Below, one piece after another: positions 5,171 to 55,139 of a stretch of 64,000 nt of DNA. The notes beneath the pieces are model-generated. The model made no database searches. It was not told the DNA's origin and was given only the letters and a program-made list of their open reading frames with translations. Origin of the DNA: an uncultured Bryobacteraceae bacterium (GTDB taxonomy: Bacteria > Acidobacteriota > Terriglobia > Bryobacterales > Bryobacteraceae); the NCBI GenBank assembly GCA_938027685.1, contig CALJAM010000018.1, positions 31,452-95,451 on the forward strand, in the 5' to 3' direction. The translations under genes were made by a program, and so were the position numbers. Numbering within the stretch: position 1 is the stretch's first letter; each line of letters starts with the position of its first letter.

Positions 5171-5247
5171 GCAAACTATTGAAAGTACCGCAGCTCAAAC
5201 CGGCGCCGCGCAGCCTGCGCGTCTGGTACCATGAAAGATCTCCCGCA

Positions 5248-6027
5248 GTGACAAGGTCGATCCCCGACTTTCTGGCTCGGATCGTGGCGCATAAGCGCCG
5301 GCTGATCGAATTTCGAACCTTCCGACGGGAAGAGCTCGAGCAGCGGGCGGCATCCGTACCCAGACGCGATTTCGCGGGCGCGCTATCGGGTCCTCCGCCC
5401 GCCGTCATCGCCGAGATCAAACGCGCCTCACCCAGTCGCGGCACGCTCGCAGCGGACGCCGACGTTCGCCGCACCGCCGAGGCCTACGCGCGAGGAGGCG
5501 CGGCTGCCCTTTCGGTTCTGACCGAGCCGCAATATTTCGCCGGTTCTCTGGCTGACCTCGAGCAGGCCCGCGCCGCCACTTGCCTGCCCCTCCTGCGCAA
5601 AGATTTTACGCTCGACGAGTACGACGTGGCGGAGGCGGCCGCGCACGGCGCCGACGCGATCCTGCTGATCGCCGCGATCCTGCCGCCAAGCGATTTGCGT
5701 CGGCTGCGCGAGTACGCCGAAGGCTTGGGCCTAGCGGCCCTCGTGGAGGTTCACGACCGGCAGGAACTGCTGGCGGCGCTCGATTCGGGGGCGCGGATCA
5801 TCGGCGTCAACAACCGAAACCTGCGCACGCTCGAGGTACGCCTGGAGACGTCCCTCGAGCTGGCCGCGCAAATCCCGCCGGGGGTGATCAAGGTCAGCGA
5901 AAGCGGCATTCACTCTTCCACTGACGTGCGGTTGCTGCGCCAGGCGGGCTACACCGCGTTTCTGGTGGGCGAGCATCTGATGACGTCCGCCGATCCCGAA
6001 GCCGCCCTACGGGCCTTGCGATCATGA
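5248..6027 (+). CDS. trpC: Indole-3-glycerol-phosphate synthase
   Basis: Closes the pyrrole ring in tryptophan synthesis, turning CdRP into indole-3-glycerol phosphate. The TIM-barrel motifs are all visible: VIAEIKRASPSRG with the catalytic Lys/Ser segment, LLRKDFTLDEY, GVNNRNLRTLEV, and VSESGI followed by FLVGEHLM for the phosphate site. The ORF track starts at ATG 5179, but that leaves 8 bp to the divergent permease and adds a non-conserved leader. GTG 5248 gives 259 residues, normal for the family, and space for promoters. First gene of a long aromatic operon; trpE, trpG and trpD are not in the window. The stop overlaps trpF by 4 nt. Confidence 0.94.
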   Translation: MTRSIPDFLARIVAHKRRLIEFRTFRREELEQRAASVPRRDFAGALSGPPPAVIAEIKRASPSRGTLAADADVRRTAEAYARGGAAALSVLTEPQYFAGSLADLEQARAATCLPLLRKDFTLDEYDVAEAAAHGADAILLIAAILPPSDLRRLREYAEGLGLAALVEVHDRQELLAALDSGARIIGVNNRNLRTLEVRLETSLELAAQIPPGVIKVSESGIHSSTDVRLLRQAGYTAFLVGEHLMTSADPEAALRALRS

Positions 6028-6641
6028 TCGTCAAGATCTGCGGCATCACGAATGCGCAGGATGCGGCGGCCGCCGCGGAAGCCGGCGCGACCGCCCTCGG
6101 CGTCAATTTCTATCCCGAGAGCCCCCGCTTCGTGACGCCCGAGCAGGCTTACCACATTCTTTCGGTGGTCCCCGAAGAAGTCTGGAAAGTGGGCGTTTTC
6201 GTGAACGAGCCGCGTGAGCGGGTCGAAACGTTGGCGCGTGAGCTCGGACTGGACGTCGTCCAGCTCCACGGCGAGGTTCCTGAATGGCCCACGGGCCTAC
6301 GCGTTTGGCGCGCGGTTCGGGTGGAGCCCGGCTTCCCCACCGCCGATCTCAGCGATCCCCACGTGGAAGCTTTTTTGCTCGATGCAGCCCCGGCCGGCGT
6401 CTGGGGCGGTTCAGGTGCATCTTTTGATTGGCGCCTCGCTCGCGGTGCTCGCAGCCGAATCATCATCGCCGGCGGTTTGGATGAGACCAACGTGGCCGAG
6501 GCCATCCGCCAGGCCAGACCGTGGGGCGTGGACGCCTGCTCGCGTCTGGAGCGCGCACCGGGACGCAAGGACCACATCCGCATGCGTCGTTTCATCCAAG
6601 AGGCGCTGGCAGCTGCCCGGGAAGGAGAACAGACGTGCTGA
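6024..6641 (+). CDS. trpF: Phosphoribosylanthranilate isomerase
   Basis: Amadori rearrangement of phosphoribosylanthranilate to CdRP, the step before TrpC. The protein has 205 residues and begins [12 protein letters not shown] with the catalytic Cys. It continues with [18 protein letters not shown] and [14 protein letters not shown], and the phosphate-binding [11 protein letters not shown] near the C-terminus. The start ATG overlaps the trpC stop (ATGA), and the TGA stop overlaps the trpB GTG, so translation is probably coupled. Standard monofunctional enzyme. Confidence 0.96.
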
Positions 6642-7852
6642 CATCCCTGCCTGACGCACGTGGGCACTTCGGCCCTTACGGCGGACGTTTCGTGCCCGAA
6701 ACCCTGATGGCGCCGCTCGAGGAGCTGGAGAAGGCCTACTTCGAGGCGCGCCGAGATCCTGTCTTTCAGGCCGAACTCCGAACGCTGCTCCAGGAATACG
6801 CCGGGCGGCCCACACCCCTCTATTTCGCCCGAAGGCTGAGCGAATCGCTCGGAGGCGCGAAGATCTACTTCAAACGGGAAGACCTGCTTCACACCGGCGC
6901 GCACAAGATCAATAACTGCCTGGGTCAGATTCTGCTGGCGCGGCGGATGGGCAAGCGACGCATCATCGCCGAGACCGGCGCCGGACAGCACGGCGTGGCC
7001 ACCGCGACCGTCGCCGCGCTCTTCGGCATGGAGTGCGTCATCTACATGGGCGCCGAAGATATGGAGCGGCAACGGCTGAACGTCTTCCGCATGCGCCTGC
7101 TCGGTGCGCACGTGGTGGGCGTCAACAGCGGCAGCCGCACGCTCAAGGACGCCATCAGCGAAGCCATGCGAGACTGGGTCACCAACGTGGCCGACACTTA
7201 CTACCTGCTGGGCTCCGCTCTCGGGGCGCACCCCTACCCGGTCATGGTGCGCGACTTTCAAAGCGTGATCGGCGAGGAGACCCATCAGCAGATCCTGGCC
7301 AAGGAAGGCCGCCTGCCCGACGCCGTCTTCGCCTGCGTCGGGGGAGGATCCAATGCCATCGGCATCTTTCACCGCTTCCTCGCAGAGCCCGGCGTCCAGC
7401 TGATCGGCGTGGAGGCGGGCGGGCGCGGCCCGCTCCTGGGCGAGCATGCGGCGCGGTTTTCCGGAGGCGCCCCCGGCGTGCTCCATGGCGCCTACAGCTA
7501 CCTGCTGCAGGACGAGTACGGGCAGGTCGCCCCGACGCACTCCGTCTCGGCCGGCCTCGATTACGCGCTCGTCGGTCCCGAGCACGCCTGGCTGCGCGAT
7601 CAAGGCCGCGCCGAGTACGTTGCAGTGGGCGATCGCGAAGCCTTGGAGGCGGCGCGCCTGCTGGCGCGCAGCGAGGGGTTGATTGCGGCGCTGGAATCCG
7701 CGCACGCGGTGGCCGAGGCCGTGCGGCGGGCGCCCGGCGCGAGCGGACAGATCTTCATCGTCAACCTATCCGGCCGAGGGGACAAGGACATTGACATCTA
7801 CCGGCAGCACTTCCCCGAGTTGGACGAAGACCCGTATCAGCCGCCTCTTTGA
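6635..7852 (+). CDS. trpB: Tryptophan synthase beta chain
   Basis: PLP enzyme joining indole and serine to give tryptophan, working with TrpA. From GTG 6635 the protein has 405 residues. The PLP lysine is in HTGAHKINN (Lys91) and the phosphate cup is [20 protein letters not shown] and [10 protein letters not shown] are family signatures. The track extends the ORF back to 6521, but that part overlaps trpF in another frame and is not conserved. GTG 6635 follows a good GGAAGGAG site and overlaps the trpF stop by 7 nt. Canonical TrpB1 type, since it sits beside trpA. Confidence 0.96.
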
Positions 7853-8624
7853 GCGCGTGCGCAGGGAGGGCCGACCCGCCCTCATCGCCTACCTGACGGC
7901 CGGTGATCCGTCGCTGGAGCGAACCGTCTCGCTGGTCGCTGCCCTCGAAGAAGGCGGCGCGGACCTGATCGAGCTGGGCGTGCCCTTCTCCGACCCCATC
8001 GCTGATGGCCCGGTGATCCAGCGCGCCTGCCGGCGCGCCCTGCAGGCGGGCGCGACGCTGCCGCGCATCCTGGAGACCGCGTTCCGCATCCGTTCGCGCT
8101 CGCAAATCCCGCTGTTGCTGTTCAGTTACCTCAACCCGGTGCTGCGGTACGGCTTCGAGGCCGCCGCACGCGACGCCGCCGCCGCGGGAGTGGACGGCTT
8201 CCTGCTTACCGACCTGAGCGTGGAGGAGGCCGGAGATTACACGGCTGCCTTGCGCCGAGCCGGTCTCGACACGGTCTTCCTGGCGGCTCCGACGAGCACC
8301 GACGAACGTCTCCGCCTCGTGGCGCAGCACTCCAGCGGCTTCGTATACTTGGTATCACGCACGGGCGTCACGGGTGAGCGCGAAGCGCTTTCCGAGCAAG
8401 TAGGCCGGCTCGTCGCCAGACTGCGGGCCATCACGGCTCTGCCGCTGGCGGTGGGCTTCGGCATCTCACGTCCGGAGCAGGCGGCTGCGGCAGCGCGCCT
8501 GGCCGACGGCGTGGTCGTGGGCAGCGCGTTCGTGCGAATCATCGAGCAGGCCCACGAGAGCGCCGATCTGGAGACACGCCTGAGGCGTTTCGCGCGCGAG
8601 CTCAAACAGGCGATGACGGGTTGA
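7791..8624 (+). CDS. trpA: Tryptophan synthase alpha chain
   Basis: Cleaves indole-3-glycerol phosphate to indole and passes it to TrpB. The conserved core starts at [26 protein letters not shown] and includes [17 protein letters not shown] with the catalytic Glu, a second catalytic acid in [21 protein letters not shown], and the phosphate loop VGFGIS...VVVGSAFV. The start is uncertain: the core overlaps the end of trpB, there is no ATG, and TTG 7791 after GAGGGGACAAGG is the best in-frame candidate (277 residues). GTG 7857 would cut into the conserved N-terminus. The track start at 7683 is far too early. Confidence 0.9.
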
Positions 8625-8630
8625 GCCGCC

Positions 8631-8957
8631 ATGGATCGCAACGAAGCATTGAAGGCGCTGGCCGCGTGCCGCGCGCAAATCGATGCGTTGGACCTGCGCA
8701 TCCTCGAGCTGCTCAACGAGCGGACGCGCATCGTCGAGGAAATCGGGCGGCTGAAGCGCCGGTTGAACCTCCCCATATATGAGCCGCGCCGCGAGGACGA
8801 AGTCTACGCAAACGTCACGTCGCACAACGGCGGCCCGCTCACTGCCGAGGCCGTGCGTCGCGTCTTCGAACGCATCATCGACGAAATGAGAACCGTGCAG
8901 AAGCTACGCATGGAGGAAGAAGCCCGGCGCTCGGTTCCCGAGCCGGAGGACCACTGA
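8631..8957 (+). CDS. Chorismate mutase (AroQ class, type II fold)
   Basis: Small all-helical enzyme, 108 residues, converting chorismate to prephenate, the branch point to Tyr/Phe. AroQ features: the IDALDLRILELLNERTRIVEEIG helix with the catalytic Arg, then RLKRRLNLPIYEPRRED supplying the Lys/Arg and Arg-x-Asp/Glu pairs, and a C-terminal helix FERIIDEMRTVQK. It lies 6 nt after trpA and 13 nt before the DAHP synthase, so it belongs to the operon. In some bacteria such AroQ domains associate with DAHP synthase and feed back on it; the adjacency makes that plausible but unproven. Confidence 0.93.
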   Translation: MDRNEALKALAACRAQIDALDLRILELLNERTRIVEEIGRLKRRLNLPIYEPRREDEVYANVTSHNGGPLTAEAVRRVFERIIDEMRTVQKLRMEEEARRSVPEPEDH

Positions 8958-8970
8958 GGGGAGCACTGCC

Positions 8971-9984
8971 ATGTTGGTCATCATGCAGGAAGGAGCCACA
9001 GAGAGCCAGATCCAGGCGGTCATTGACCGGCTGGTGGCGCTCGGTTTCGCCGTGCATCGTTCGACCGGTGTGGCGCACACCATCCTGGGGGGCATCGGTC
9101 CGGAAAGCCATGTAGACCCCGCCGAGTTCGCGGTGATGGACGGGGTGAAGGAATGTCACCGGGTGATGTCGCCCTACAAGCTGGCCAGCCGCCACTTCCG
9201 GCCGGAGGGCACCAGGATTCGCCTCGGGGAAGTCGAAATCGGCGGCCCGCGCGTGGTCGTCATGGCCGGCCCCTGCAGCGTGGAGAACAGAGACCAGATC
9301 ATGGCGGCTGCCGAGCGCGTGGCTCGCGCCGGAGGAACCGTGCTGAGGGGCGGCGCTTTCAAGCCCCGAACGTCTCCACACAGCTTCCAGGGCCTGGGCG
9401 AAGAGGGACTGCGACTGCTGCGCGAGGCCGCCGATCGCTACGGGCTGCTCGCGGTCAGCGAGGTTATGGACGCCAGTCAGATCGAACTGGTCGCCGCTTA
9501 CGCGGACATCCTCCAGGTGGGAACCCGGAACATGCAGAACTACCACCTGCTGCGCGAGCTGGGCCAACAGCCCAAGCCCGTCCTGCTCAAACGCGGCCTT
9601 TCCGCCACGATCGAGGAATGGCTCCTCGCCGCCGAGTACATCATGAACGAAGGCAATTACAACGTCATCCTCTGCGAACGCGGCATCCGTACGTTCGAAA
9701 CCTACACGCGCAACACAATGGACATCACCGCCATCCCCGTGGCCAAGAAACTCTCTCATCTTCCCGTGCTCGCCGATCCCTCCCACGGCACCGGGCGGCG
9801 CGATATGGTGCTCCCAGTGGCCCGGGCCGCGGTAGCCGCCGGCGCCGACGGCCTGCTCATCGAGGTCCATCCCGAGCCGGAGCGCGCCCTGAGCGATGGG
9901 GCCCAATCGCTGCGTCCCGACCAGTTCGAAGAGCTGATGAGCCAGTTGCGCATCATCGCCCAGGCCGTGGGAAGGAGCTTATGA
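8971..9984 (+). CDS. aroF: DAHP synthase, class I beta with N-terminal ferredoxin-like domain
   Basis: First enzyme of the shikimate pathway, condensing phosphoenolpyruvate and erythrose-4-phosphate. It has 337 residues. Residues 1-70 ([14 protein letters not shown]...) form the ferredoxin-like regulatory domain known from Thermotoga maritima DAHP synthase, where it confers Tyr/Phe inhibition. The barrel carries [49 protein letters not shown] and [14 protein letters not shown], the usual substrate and metal motifs. Its placement between chorismate mutase and prephenate dehydrogenase ties entry to the pathway to its aromatic exits. Start is ATG after GGGAGC. Confidence 0.95.
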
Positions 9985-11276
9985 ATCCTCAGGGATTCCG
10001 CACCGTAACCATCGTGGGTACCGGCCTGATCGGCGCCTCGTTCGGCCTCGCTCTCAGGCGTGCCGGCTTCCGCGGCCGGATCTTAGGCGTCAGCTCCCCG
10101 CCGGCCCTCGAGGATGCGCTGCGCGTGGGTGCGGTGGATCGAGCAGCGAGTCTGGAAGAAGCGGCTTCGCAGTCGGAGCTGGTCTTTCTCGCCCGACCCA
10201 TCCTTGGTATTCTCGAGACGCTGCCGCGGCTCGACGCCTTCGTGCCCGAGCACTGCCTGGTCACCGACGCCGGCAGCACGAAAGCCCTCATCGTGGAGCA
10301 GGCGCGCCGCAGCCTCACTAGGGCGCGGTTCCTCGGCGGCCACCCCATGGCCGGCAAAGAGAAACGGGGGGCGGCCGAGGCGGAAGCCACCTTGTTCGCC
10401 GGGCGCACCTGGATCCTCACCCCCGTCGAACCCGCCGAACTGCAAGCGCCGGCGGCTCAGGAACTGCTCCGCTGGATCCGAGCCATAGGCGGTCGTCCGC
10501 TCATGCTGTCGCCGGCGGAACACGATCGCATCGTGGCTCTGACCTCCCACCTCCCCCAGTTGCTATCCACCGCGCTGGCCGCGACCCTGGCGCGGCAGCT
10601 CGAACGACCCGAGCACCTTGCCGCCTGCGGACCCGGCCTGCTCGATATGACGCGGCTTGCCGCCAGCCCCTTCGAGGTCTGGCGCGACATCCTTGCGACC
10701 AACGAGAGACCCATCAGGGAGGCGCTGGAGGCGTGCATCAAGACTCTGCGGGCGGCATGGGACGGCGCCGCAACCGTGAGCGAACTGTTTCAGTCCGCCA
10801 ACGAGTTTGCCGCACGCTTGCGCCAGGGCCCACCCGGCGAGGAGGCGCAGTTGAAACAAAAACAGCGAGTCCTGTTTGTTTGCACCGGCAATTCGGCCCG
10901 CAGCCAGATGGCGGAAGGCCTGATGCGTCATCTGGCAGGCGACCGCTTCGAGGTCGCCAGCGCGGGCACTCACCCGAGCTTCGTGCGCCCGGAAGCGATC
11001 GCCGTCATGCGCGAACTCGGTGTGGATATCTCGGGCCACCGCTCGAAATCGCTCGACGAGTTTCTCGAGCAGCCCTTCGATTTCGTGATCACCGTGTGCG
11101 ACCAGGCGCGCCAGAGCTGCCCGGTCTTCCCCGGCCCTGCACGACGGATCCACTGGAGCCTCGAGGATCCGGCGGCGGCCCAGGGTTCCGAGCAAGAGCG
11201 GCTCGCGGTCTTTCGCCGCGTGCGCGACGAGCTCAATGAGCGCATCCGCGCGTTCCTGGCGGAGTCGCCACGGTGA
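9981..11276 (+). CDS. tyrA: Prephenate dehydrogenase fused to arsenate reductase/LMW phosphatase
   Basis: One uninterrupted 431-residue frame joins two enzymes. Residues 1-285 are a full-length TyrA: Rossmann motif VGTGLIGAS (12-20), [26 protein letters not shown], and a C-terminal [13 protein letters not shown] where TyrA proteins usually end. After about ten linker residues, residues 296-431 are a low-molecular-weight phosphatase of the thioredoxin-coupled arsenate reductase type: CTGNSARS (Cys301, Arg307), the relay pair Cys373/Cys380 in [10 protein letters not shown], and the acid in SLEDP. A TTG at 10851 preceded by AGGAGG could also start the second domain alone. The ATG at 9981 follows GGAAGGAGC and overlaps the aroF stop. 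The track start at 9153 is wrong. Confidence 0.9.
10839..10853 (+). promoter_or_regulatory. Internal Shine-Dalgarno and TTG before ArsC-like domain
   Basis: GAGGAGG at 10839-10845, then five bases, then TTG at 10851 in the same frame as tyrA. This is a near-ideal ribosome site exactly at the domain boundary, so a free phosphatase could be made besides the fusion. The same bases also encode Glu-Glu in the linker, so the match may be chance. Confidence 0.45.
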
Positions 11277-11323: not shown

Positions 11324-12640
11324 ATGCCGCTGCGTCGCGAGCTGGGCCTTCGCGATCTGGTCCTCTTCAATCTGGCCGCCGTTGTGGGCATCCGTTGGCT
11401 GGCGGCGGCGGCGCGCGTCGGGCCGCCGGCGCTCCTGCTGTGGCTGCTCGCGGCGGCGCTGTTTTTCGTGCCCTCCGCCCTGGCCGTCTCGCGCCTCGCC
11501 TCGCTCTGGCCCGAGCAAGGCGGACTTTACGTTTGGACCCGTCGCAGCTTCGGCGACTGGCACGGGTTCCTCTGCGGCTGGTGCTACTGGCTGAGCAATC
11601 TTTTCTACTTCCCGAATCTGCTGTTGGCCGGGTTGGGCATGGCCGCCTACCTGGCGGGCGAGCGCGGCATCGTGCTTTCGGAGGACCGAACCTATTTGGT
11701 CGCGGGCGCCCTGCTGGCGCTCTGGACTAGCACGCTCACCCATCTGGTGGGCCTGCGCGTGGGCAAGTGGACGGAAAACGTGGGCGCCCTGGCGACCTAT
11801 GCTGCGGGCTTCATGCTGGTGGTTTGCGGGGCGGCGGTATGGCTTCGGGGTCAGGTCGCCAAGGTCGCCGGCCCCTGGAGCCCGCGCTGGGACTGGGGTA
11901 CCGTCAATTTCTGGTCCCAGATTGCTTTTGCCTACGGCGGATTGGAACTAAGCGCCGCCATGGGTGGAGAAATTCGCGACCCCGTCCGCACGGTGCCGCG
12001 GGCCGCGTGGCTGAGCGGGGCGGCTATCGCAGCCTTCTACATGGCCGGGACGGGCGCGATGATCCTCCTCACGCCGCCGGAGAACATCAGCATCCTCACA
12101 GGCCTTGCGCAGGCGGGCGCTGCCGCCGCCAGGACGCTGGATATGGCTTGGATCAGCCCCTTGCTCGCTGCCCTCGTCACCTTGGGCATCGTCGGACAGC
12201 TCGGCGCCTGGCTGGCGGGCTCGGCACGCATTCCTTTCGCGATCGGCCTGGATCGTTACCTGCCGCAGGCCTTCGCCCGTTTGCATCCCCGCTGGGGCAC
12301 GCCGCATGTGGCGATCCTGACGCAAGCCGCGGCCTGCAGCGTCTTCCTACTCACCCTACAGGCCGGAGAAAACCCGCGCTCGGCTTACCAGCTGCTGGTG
12401 GACATCACCGTGATCACCTATTTCATTCCGTTCGTCTATATGTTTCTGGCTGCCGGGAAGCAGCACTTGCGCCTGGGCTCGCTTTGCGGCCTCGCCGTGA
12501 CGTTGCTCGCCATCGGCGTCTCTCTGGCCCCGCCCACCGAGGCCGAGCGGCCGGTTCTTTTCACGCTGAAGATCGCAGGCGGGTGCGTGCTGCTCATTGC
12601 GGCGGCTAGGATGGTTTTCACGAGGTCGCAGCGCAGGTGA
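11324..12640 (+). CDS. APC-family amino-acid permease
   Basis: Inner-membrane protein of 438 residues with about twelve hydrophobic helices. It matches the amino-acid/polyamine/organocation family: LRDLVLFNLAAVVGIRWL at the start corresponds to the unwound helix 1, FFVPSALAVSRLASLWPEQGGLYVWTRR is a strong family segment, and AYGGLELSAAMGGEIRDPVRTVPRA is the helix 6/loop signature. Substrate is not readable; position behind trp/tyr genes suggests, but does not show, an aromatic amino acid. ATG 11324 lies 47 bp after the tyrA fusion, and its stop overlaps the folC start. Confidence 0.88.
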   Translation: MPLRRELGLRDLVLFNLAAVVGIRWLAAAARVGPPALLLWLLAAALFFVPSALAVSRLASLWPEQGGLYVWTRRSFGDWHGFLCGWCYWLSNLFYFPNLLLAGLGMAAYLAGERGIVLSEDRTYLVAGALLALWTSTLTHLVGLRVGKWTENVGALATYAAGFMLVVCGAAVWLRGQVAKVAGPWSPRWDWGTVNFWSQIAFAYGGLELSAAMGGEIRDPVRTVPRAAWLSGAAIAAFYMAGTGAMILLTPPENISILTGLAQAGAAAARTLDMAWISPLLAALVTLGIVGQLGAWLAGSARIPFAIGLDRYLPQAFARLHPRWGTPHVAILTQAAACSVFLLTLQAGENPRSAYQLLVDITVITYFIPFVYMFLAAGKQHLRLGSLCGLAVTLLAIGVSLAPPTEAERPVLFTLKIAGGCVLLIAAARMVFTRSQRR

Positions 12641-53044: not shown

Positions 53045-54013
53045 TCAACGCTGCACCGCGGCCTGACGTCCTGCCCGCGTGCGGATCTCGCGAATGGCGT
53101 AGATGCGTCGCCCCTGGCTCTCGAAGTAGGTGCGCATCAGCATCTCGCCCAGCAGGCCGGTCGAGAACATCATGATCCCGGCCAGCAGCAGCAGGCTCCC
53201 CGCCAGCAGCAGCGGCCCGTGCTCGATCAGGATCTCGTGCCCCATGAGCTTATAGACGAACAGGTAGCCCAGGATGGCTCCGCCCACCGTCGTGCCCGCT
53301 AGGCCGAACTTGCCGAAGAAATGCATCGGCCGGGTGAAGTAGCTGAGCAGGAACTTAATGGTGAGAATGTCGAACAGCACGTGAAAAGTTCGGCCGAGCC
53401 CGTAATGCGAACCGCCGCCGGCGCGGGGCGCGTTCTGGATGGGAACTTCGGCGATGCGTGCCCCGTAAAAGCTCGCCAGCGCAGGAATGAAACGGTGTAG
53501 CTCCCCGTACAGGTTGATGTCCCTGAGAATCTCCGCCCGGTAGGCCTTGAACGTGGTCCCGAAATCGTGCAGCTCGATGCCGGACAATTTCGCCATGATC
53601 CAGTTGGCCACGCGGGAAGGAAGCTTGCGCGTTATGGGATTATCGACACGGTTCTTGCGCCAGCCGCTGGCGATGTCGTAGCCTTCGTCAATCTTGGCCA
53701 GCAGAAGCGGGATATCCTCGGGGGCATGCTGCAAGTCCGCGTCGAGGGAAATGACCACCTCCCCGCGCGCCTCGTGAAAGCCGGCCGAAAGCGCCGCCGT
53801 CTGACCGAAATTGCGCCGCAGGCGGATTACCTTCACGCGATCGTCGGAATCGGCCAGGCCGGCCAGGAGCTCGAAACTGCGGTCCGTGGAAGCATCGTCC
53901 ACAAAGATGATCTCGTAGGGCCGCCCCAGCTTCTCCAGCGTGGCGGTGAGACGGTCGTACAGCGGCAGCAGCGAACTCTCCTCGTTGTGGACCGGGATCA
54001 CCACCGAAAGCAT
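53045..54013 (-). CDS. Glycosyltransferase family 2, membrane-bound (ArnC/GtrB-like)
   Basis: From ATG 54013 it has 322 residues. The catalytic domain carries MLSVVIPVHNEESSLLPLYDRL, IIFVDDASTDRSFE, RRNFGQTAALSAGF and DADLQHAPEDIP with the DxD. Two C-terminal hydrophobic helices (GLAGTTVGGAILGYLFVYKLMG and LLLAGSLLLLAGIMMFSTGLLGEMLMR) are typical of polyprenyl-phosphate sugar transferases. Probably loads a sugar onto undecaprenyl phosphate. The track start at 54238 overlaps DegT. Last gene of a GT2-DegT-GT2 run. Confidence 0.92.
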   Translation of the reverse strand: MLSVVIPVHNEESSLLPLYDRLTATLEKLGRPYEIIFVDDASTDRSFELLAGLADSDDRVKVIRLRRNFGQTAALSAGFHEARGEVVISLDADLQHAPEDIPLLLAKIDEGYDIASGWRKNRVDNPITRKLPSRVANWIMAKLSGIELHDFGTTFKAYRAEILRDINLYGELHRFIPALASFYGARIAEVPIQNAPRAGGGSHYGLGRTFHVLFDILTIKFLLSYFTRPMHFFGKFGLAGTTVGGAILGYLFVYKLMGHEILIEHGPLLLAGSLLLLAGIMMFSTGLLGEMLMRTYFESQGRRIYAIREIRTRAGRQAAVQR

Positions 54014-54029
54014 GGCTTCCGTTACCAGT

Positions 54030-55139
54030 CTAACAGCGGCCTCGTAGGTAAAAGTCGCGAATGCGGCCCGCGACCTCCGCCGCCGCTTGTTCGGGCAGGT
54101 GAGGATAGAGCGGCAGGGAAATGACTTCGCGGCAGGCTCGCTCGGCCACCGGCAAGTCGCCTCGTCGTGCGCCGCAGTCCTGAAAGGCAGGCTGTAGGTG
54201 CAGTGGTACCGGATAGTGAACCGCTGTGCCGATACCATGGGAGGCCAGGTAGCGACGTAACTTTTCTCGGCTGCGCACCCGAATCACGTAGAGGTGATGC
54301 ACGGATCCGGTGCGGTCGAGCAGCCTCACCCCGGGGCAATCGCGCAAGGCCTCGTCGTACAGTGCCGCCAACCGCTGCCTCTGCCGGTTCCACTCGGGCA
54401 GGTAGGTCAGGAACGCGCGCAGGTAACAGGCCTGCATTTCATCCAGCCGCGAGTTCACGCCCGCCAGTCGGCTCACATGCCCGCCCGCTCGTCCGCCGTC
54501 GCGCAGCATGGCCAGCCGCCTGCGAATGCGCGCGCTGCCCGTCACTACGGCGCCCGCGTCACCCAGCGCACCCAGGTTCTTCGTGGGATAGAAACTGTAC
54601 GCCACGTATTGCGACCAGGCCGCCAGGGGACGCCCGCGATAAAGGGCTCCGTGGGCCTGACAGGCATCCTGCACCAGCACCGCGCCGAGCTGCTTGGCCA
54701 GATCGCGCCAGCGGTCCAGCTCGCACGGCCGCCCATACAGGTGCACCGGCATCAAGGCCGCCGTCCGCCGCGTGGCGCGCCGCGCCGTGTCGTCGACATC
54801 GAGCAACAAAGTTTCCGGGTTGACGTCGGCAAAGCGCGGACTGGCTCCCGCAGCGCGAATGGCAAGGCCCGTAAAAGGCGCCGTCAGCGGCGTCGTAATC
54901 ACTTCCATGCGCCGCTCGGTGACGCCCGCCGCGCGCAGACAGAGCTCCAGCGCCGCCGTCCCCGTCCCCGTGCCCACGGCGTAGCGCGCCCCCATCGCAC
55001 GCGCGAACTCCGCCTCGAAACCTGCCACCTGCTCGCCCAGAATGAATTGACCTCGCTCGAACATCTCGCTCAGGCGCGACTCCCACAGCGGCCTCGCCTC
55101 CTCGATGGCGGGCTTCAGATCGATGAAAGGGATTCTCAT
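54030..55139 (-). CDS. DegT/DnrJ/EryC1/StrS aminotransferase (sugar aminotransferase)
   Basis: PLP enzyme transaminating a nucleotide-linked keto sugar. The protein has 369 residues: MRIPFIDLKPAIEEARPLWESRLSEMFERGQFILGE, AVGTGTGTAALELCLRAAGV, VDDTARRATRRTAALMPVHLYG, VQDACQAHGALY, and the PLP-Lys in YSFYPTKNLGALGDAGAVV. The C-terminal HLYVIRVRSREKLRRYLASHGIGTAVHYP is standard. It overlaps the upstream GT2 start/stop by 4 nt. With its flanking transferases it resembles pathways for amino-sugar lipid modification (ArnB-like), but sugar identity cannot be read. Confidence 0.95.
   Translation of the reverse strand: MRIPFIDLKPAIEEARPLWESRLSEMFERGQFILGEQVAGFEAEFARAMGARYAVGTGTGTAALELCLRAAGVTERRMEVITTPLTAPFTGLAIRAAGASPRFADVNPETLLLDVDDTARRATRRTAALMPVHLYGRPCELDRWRDLAKQLGAVLVQDACQAHGALYRGRPLAAWSQYVAYSFYPTKNLGALGDAGAVVTGSARIRRRLAMLRDGGRAGGHVSRLAGVNSRLDEMQACYLRAFLTYLPEWNRQRQRLAALYDEALRDCPGVRLLDRTGSVHHLYVIRVRSREKLRRYLASHGIGTAVHYPVPLHLQPAFQDCGARRGDLPVAERACREVISLPLYPHLPEQAAAEVAGRIRDFYLRGRC

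Follow-up and report, generated by a model that had tools for sequence, protein, structure and literature searches.

A single reading frame encodes TyrA followed by ArsC

The stretch analysed here (the window; 64,000 nt of contig CALJAM010000018.1) belongs to a Bryobacteraceae metagenome-assembled genome (MAG; Acidobacteriota) of 3.93 Mb and 97% completeness, labelled G000. Its forward strand carries a gene cluster in the order trpC-trpF-trpB-trpA-aroQ-aroF-tyrA-arsC-permease-folC-plsC. The AroQ chorismate mutase (8631–8957) was assigned from its sequence and its position in the trp-aro operon, the order of which is conserved in relatives. It is followed by a DAHP synthase of the aroF type (8971–9984), whose stop codon overlaps the tyrA start (ATGA). 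The amino-acid permease (APC family; 11324–12640), assigned from Pfam PF13520 and synteny, also lies 3′ of arsC in a sister species. The stretch from trp to tyrA is conserved across Bryobacteraceae and order-level relatives, with the DAHP synthase absent or unmatched in some. The trpC-trpF-trpB-trpA-aroQ-aroF-tyrA order (window positions 5179–9984) is common to many Bryobacterales and forms an aromatic supraoperon whose genes lie close together or overlap at their ends. Since several junctions are 4-nt NTGA overlaps (trpC/trpF at 6024, aroF/tyrA at 9981 and permease/folC at 12637), translation of neighbouring genes is probably coupled.

Translation of positions 9981–11276 (forward strand) yields one open reading frame of 431 codons plus a TGA, with no internal stop, as the first-pass annotation of this DNA had proposed. 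The frame encodes a complete prephenate dehydrogenase (TyrA) and then a complete thioredoxin-type arsenate reductase (ArsC). Three Pfam domains exceed their curated cut-offs: PDH_N at residues 21–153 (10041–10439), PDH_C at residues 177–258 (10509–10754) and LMWPc at residues 297–426. A search of the whole genome at E ≤ 0.001 returned this frame as the only match to TyrA and the only match to ArsC; hence, it must supply both proteins. The fused frame is known from one MAG.

The TyrA portion (residues 1–290; 9981–10850, forward strand) was identified from Pfam and NCBIfam models and from its relatives in the PDB, which are prephenate dehydrogenases (3dzb, 3ggg and 2g5c). Many NCBIfam prephenate dehydrogenase models match residues 2–284, none of them attaining its equivalog cut-off. 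The GxGxxG dinucleotide-binding fold and further conserved motifs (17 residues) are present, and conserved residues include G13, G15, G18, S99, H121, H190 and R225. At positions with ≥90% conservation among aligned homologues, the sole departure is Gly171 in place of Ala. Comparison with the sister species gave a dN/dS of ~0.16 for tyrA, at synonymous sites that are close to saturation. By its domains and motifs this portion is a prephenate dehydrogenase, with catalysis predicted.

The C-terminal domain groups with thioredoxin-type arsenate reductases

The ArsC portion spans 10851–11276 (forward strand) and was identified from the LMWPc domain, TIGR02691 and PDB relatives, which for this part of the protein are arsenate reductases (8p5n, 1jl3 and 1jf8). 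Alignment to the B. subtilis and S. aureus enzymes places Cys301 (10881–10883) on the catalytic cysteine and Arg307 (10899–10901) on the P-loop arginine, in a CX5R P-loop that reads C301-TGNSA-R307. Cys373 (11097–11099) and Cys380 (11118–11120) align with the two resolving cysteines, equivalent to Cys82 and Cys89. Together, Pfam, TIGR02691 and these alignments bear out the earlier claim of two complete domains with all four ArsC residues in place. The CX5R P-loop is common to B. subtilis ArsC (1jl3), S. aureus pI258 ArsC (1jf8) and Deinococcus indicus ArsC2 (8p5n; PMC10483234), and the G000 domain also shares with them two resolving cysteines seven residues apart and a full-length domain match. 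Unlike these three, it sits fused behind TyrA, outside any ars operon. The TIGR02691 model for thioredoxin ArsC is matched at 129 of its 129 positions (residues 297–425) with 141.6 bits, which is below the curated cut-off of 174.3. Judged by its residues and homologues, the domain thus belongs with the thioredoxin-type arsenate reductases, although not as an exact TIGR02691 equivalog.

The LMWPc fold family also includes low-molecular-weight tyrosine and arginine phosphatases, and a phosphatase would fit a genome in which Acr3- and ArsB-type arsenite efflux pumps were not found (see below). However, the resolving cysteines equivalent to Cys82 and Cys89 are present, the TIGR02691 score is far above those of Wzb- and YwlE-type matches, the best PDB relatives are arsenate reductases, and the majority of homologues lie in ars operons. 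We consider it very unlikely that the domain is a phosphatase rather than an arsenate reductase. The earlier suggestion that tyrosine synthesis is coupled to a protein-tyrosine-phosphatase is likewise unsupported, given that the domain groups with thioredoxin-type arsenate reductases and that its nearest free homologues are mostly in ars operons. Relative to the sister species, arsC has a dN of 0.12 and a dS of 1.53 (dN/dS ~0.08, with synonymous sites near saturation), indicating that it evolves under strong purifying selection in the genus.

The start signals of arsC are retained at the junction

The two domains meet in a 13-residue linker (10830–10868, forward strand) that consists of the end of the native TyrA tail and the native ArsC N-terminus. 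Within it, a Shine-Dalgarno-like AGGAGG (10840–10845) lies 5 nt before a TTG (10851–10853), confirming the earlier observation of an AGGAGG-preceded TTG exactly at the junction; we regard this TTG as a credible internal start. Free ArsCs of relatives begin MKQKRVLVLC, MEKKRLLVLC or MKPRVLILC, and the window reads TTG-KQKQR. Because the starts of these free proteins align at position 10851, the TTG in the linker is probably the native arsC start. (The combined alignment of separate TyrA and ArsC proteins misplaced TyrA rows over the ArsC region, and only the ArsC starts were read from it.) The TyrA side also has its native length: 74 codons separate the motif GPGLLDM from the TTG, and 74 residues separate it from the stop in the sister tyrA, while in the other relatives read here this tail is 69–71 residues long. 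Since both the tail length and the ArsC start match, essentially only a stop codon is missing between two complete genes. Among 192 in-frame internal ATG, GTG and TTG codons in ten genes of the region, none but the TTG at 10851 has a complete AGGAGG at a distance of 4–10 nt; the pattern AGGAGG-N4–9-[AGT]TG occurs 12 times in the 64-kb window, counting both strands.

A TGA in the +1 frame (10852–10854, forward strand) overlaps the TTG and would end tyrA if the frame were shifted by one base. The resulting TTGA resembles the NTGA overlaps at trpC/trpF, aroF/tyrA and permease/folC. It is conceivable, if on balance unlikely, that the fusion is an artefact: close to the tyrA terminus, the assembly may contain a surplus base or have a stop codon miscalled. 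On that reading, tyrA would really end at the TGA at 10852–10854, leaving two distinct genes coupled in translation. The overlap falls exactly where a native stop is expected, three other junctions of the cluster have overlaps of the same kind, and one extra base in the short G/C runs at 10826–10836 would yield the same picture. However, the TTGA is weak evidence for an artefact, since any NTG-AAA start automatically gives a TGA in the +1 frame.

tyrA and arsC are separate genes in a sister species

A sister species of the same genus, G002, has the corresponding locus on contig JAPWUP010000174.1 (locus L029), where tyrA and arsC are separate and not fused. Its tyrA ends in a TGA that overlaps (ATGA) the ATG of a gene for a D12-class adenine DNA methyltransferase (L029:1138–2004). 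This gene is followed by a 54-bp spacer with GGAGGAG, and a free arsC that has its own Shine-Dalgarno sequence and a GTG start, after which permease, folC and plsC follow as in G000. A second G002 contig, C284, overlaps the end of the first at 98.8% and bears the trp genes, giving a colinear operon. Across 14 colinear genes (about 11 kb), each gene of G000 matches its G002 counterpart in one frame, with no frame break. This argues against an artefact, because it shows that indels are no general problem of the assembly in this region. The unfused state of the sister and of all sampled relatives, on the other hand, is what an artefact would lead one to expect. No counterpart of the D12 methyltransferase turned up in G000, and its occurrence in relatives is sporadic. 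In a phylogenetic tree, the ArsCs of G000 and G002 are sisters.

As evidence against its own reading, the first-pass annotation had named close relatives that all carry the two genes separately, divided by a stop; G002, the only sister with a readable locus, has just this arrangement. A third genome of the genus, G001, has no tyrA or arsC; its contig starts inside the downstream permease and is uninformative at the junction. The search for the same architecture in related genomes, which had also been proposed, revealed no TyrA-ArsC fusion besides that of G000 among the 61 genomes searched as relatives, and none among the matches listed from 396 genomes of the phylum. Outside this genus, there was no sign of TyrA beside ArsC among the matches listed from 237 genomes of the family. 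An apparent match over residues 198–428 in G060 proved to be an arsC beside arsM and arsR (L120), not a fusion. As judged from these searches, related genomes do not share the architecture, as they would for a conserved multidomain enzyme.

arsC is retained in a genome with a broken arsM

Free ArsC homologues in the family are 66–77% identical to that of G000. Among the matches listed, most of the best ones beyond the genus have an arsR, arsM, acr3 or aquaporin gene within 1.5 kb. Ars operons of Bryobacteraceae (arsR-arsM-acr3-arsC, for example L113 and L114) carry such free homologues, whereas in G000 arsC lies in the trp-aro operon and Acr3 and ArsB were undetected in the genome. Neither Acr3 (TIGR00832) nor ArsB (PF02040) was found in G000, G001, G002 or G030, with a control genome, G010, scoring positive. 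The arsC of G030 (L110:5637–6221), the most similar outside the genus at 77%, stands alone with no adjoining ars genes.

The arsM gene of G000, for arsenite methyltransferase, is a remnant (L185:3880–4678; contig C12, about 53879–54677) whose reading frame contains a TAG and is broken twice. We judged assembly indel noise unlikely as the cause, given the combination of a TAG with two frame breaks and the open reading frames of the genes alongside. In G001 and G002, the search for arsM gave generic methyltransferase matches only. GlpF-type channels are known to pass arsenite, and an aquaglyceroporin-family gene is present in G000; its product could do the same. Going by its substitution pattern, the orphan arsC is kept under selection despite the damaged arsM and the lack of matches to pumps of the Acr3 and ArsB types. 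An arsenate reductase under selection in such a setting raises the question of the role of ArsC.

A probable local merger of two operon neighbours

We think that the fusion is probably real but very local, two neighbouring operon genes having merged at the level of the species, and that it does not amount to a new conserved enzyme. The domains are complete, the native ends abut, the Shine-Dalgarno sequence and start of arsC are retained, and the sister is unfused. In this genus, an arsenate reductase of ars-operon descent would have come into the trp-aro operon; loss of the tyrA stop in this species would then have let tyrA read in frame into arsC. The stop may have been lost in one of two ways. 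If the gene order of the sister is ancestral, a single deletion could have removed the end of tyrA, the methyltransferase gene and the spacer; alternatively, one base may have changed at an NTGA overlap. Either G002 gained the methyltransferase gene by insertion or G000 lost it along with the tyrA stop; the latter, as a single event, would account for the fusion. Initiation at the tyrA start codon is predicted to give a 47 kDa TyrA-ArsC protein, and free ArsC (15 kDa) is probably made as well, by some internal initiation at the TTG at 10851. The two parts would act independently of each other, TyrA making the tyrosine precursor and ArsC reducing arsenate with thioredoxin through a Cys301/Cys373/Cys380 relay.

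The merger could instead have been selected for its function, with the ArsC domain attached to TyrA as, for example, a regulator through which tyrosine synthesis senses redox state or oxyanions. TyrA is known to gain C-terminal regulatory domains (ACT, REG; PMC1173090), both domains here are intact and under purifying selection, and arsC is retained in spite of the broken arsM and the missing Acr3 and ArsB matches. However, arsC is free in the sister and the fusion is not conserved, the Shine-Dalgarno sequence and start of arsC are kept, and the ArsC residues are those of a standard thioredoxin-coupled enzyme. We therefore regard selection for attachment as very improbable. Even less credence goes to a bifunctional TyrA-ArsC in which the orphaned ArsC was co-opted to make tyrosine synthesis responsive to redox state or oxyanions while free ArsC came from the internal start.

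No TyrA-ArsC fusion is described in the literature searched, consistent with the earlier statement that none was known; one case without conservation is too little to establish a new coupling. In the catalogue of Song et al., TyrA fusions have aromatic-pathway or regulatory domains as partners and include very recent single-lineage cases; some, like HisHb-TyrA in Rhodobacter sphaeroides, are confined to a single organism or narrow clade (PMC1173090). The merger in G000 is likewise an in-frame tyrA fusion, but its partner is an arsenate reductase that has kept its own start signal (compare PMC1173090). If the frame is real, it represents a young fusion caught beside an unfused sister, with the partner gene still carrying its own ribosome site and start codon.
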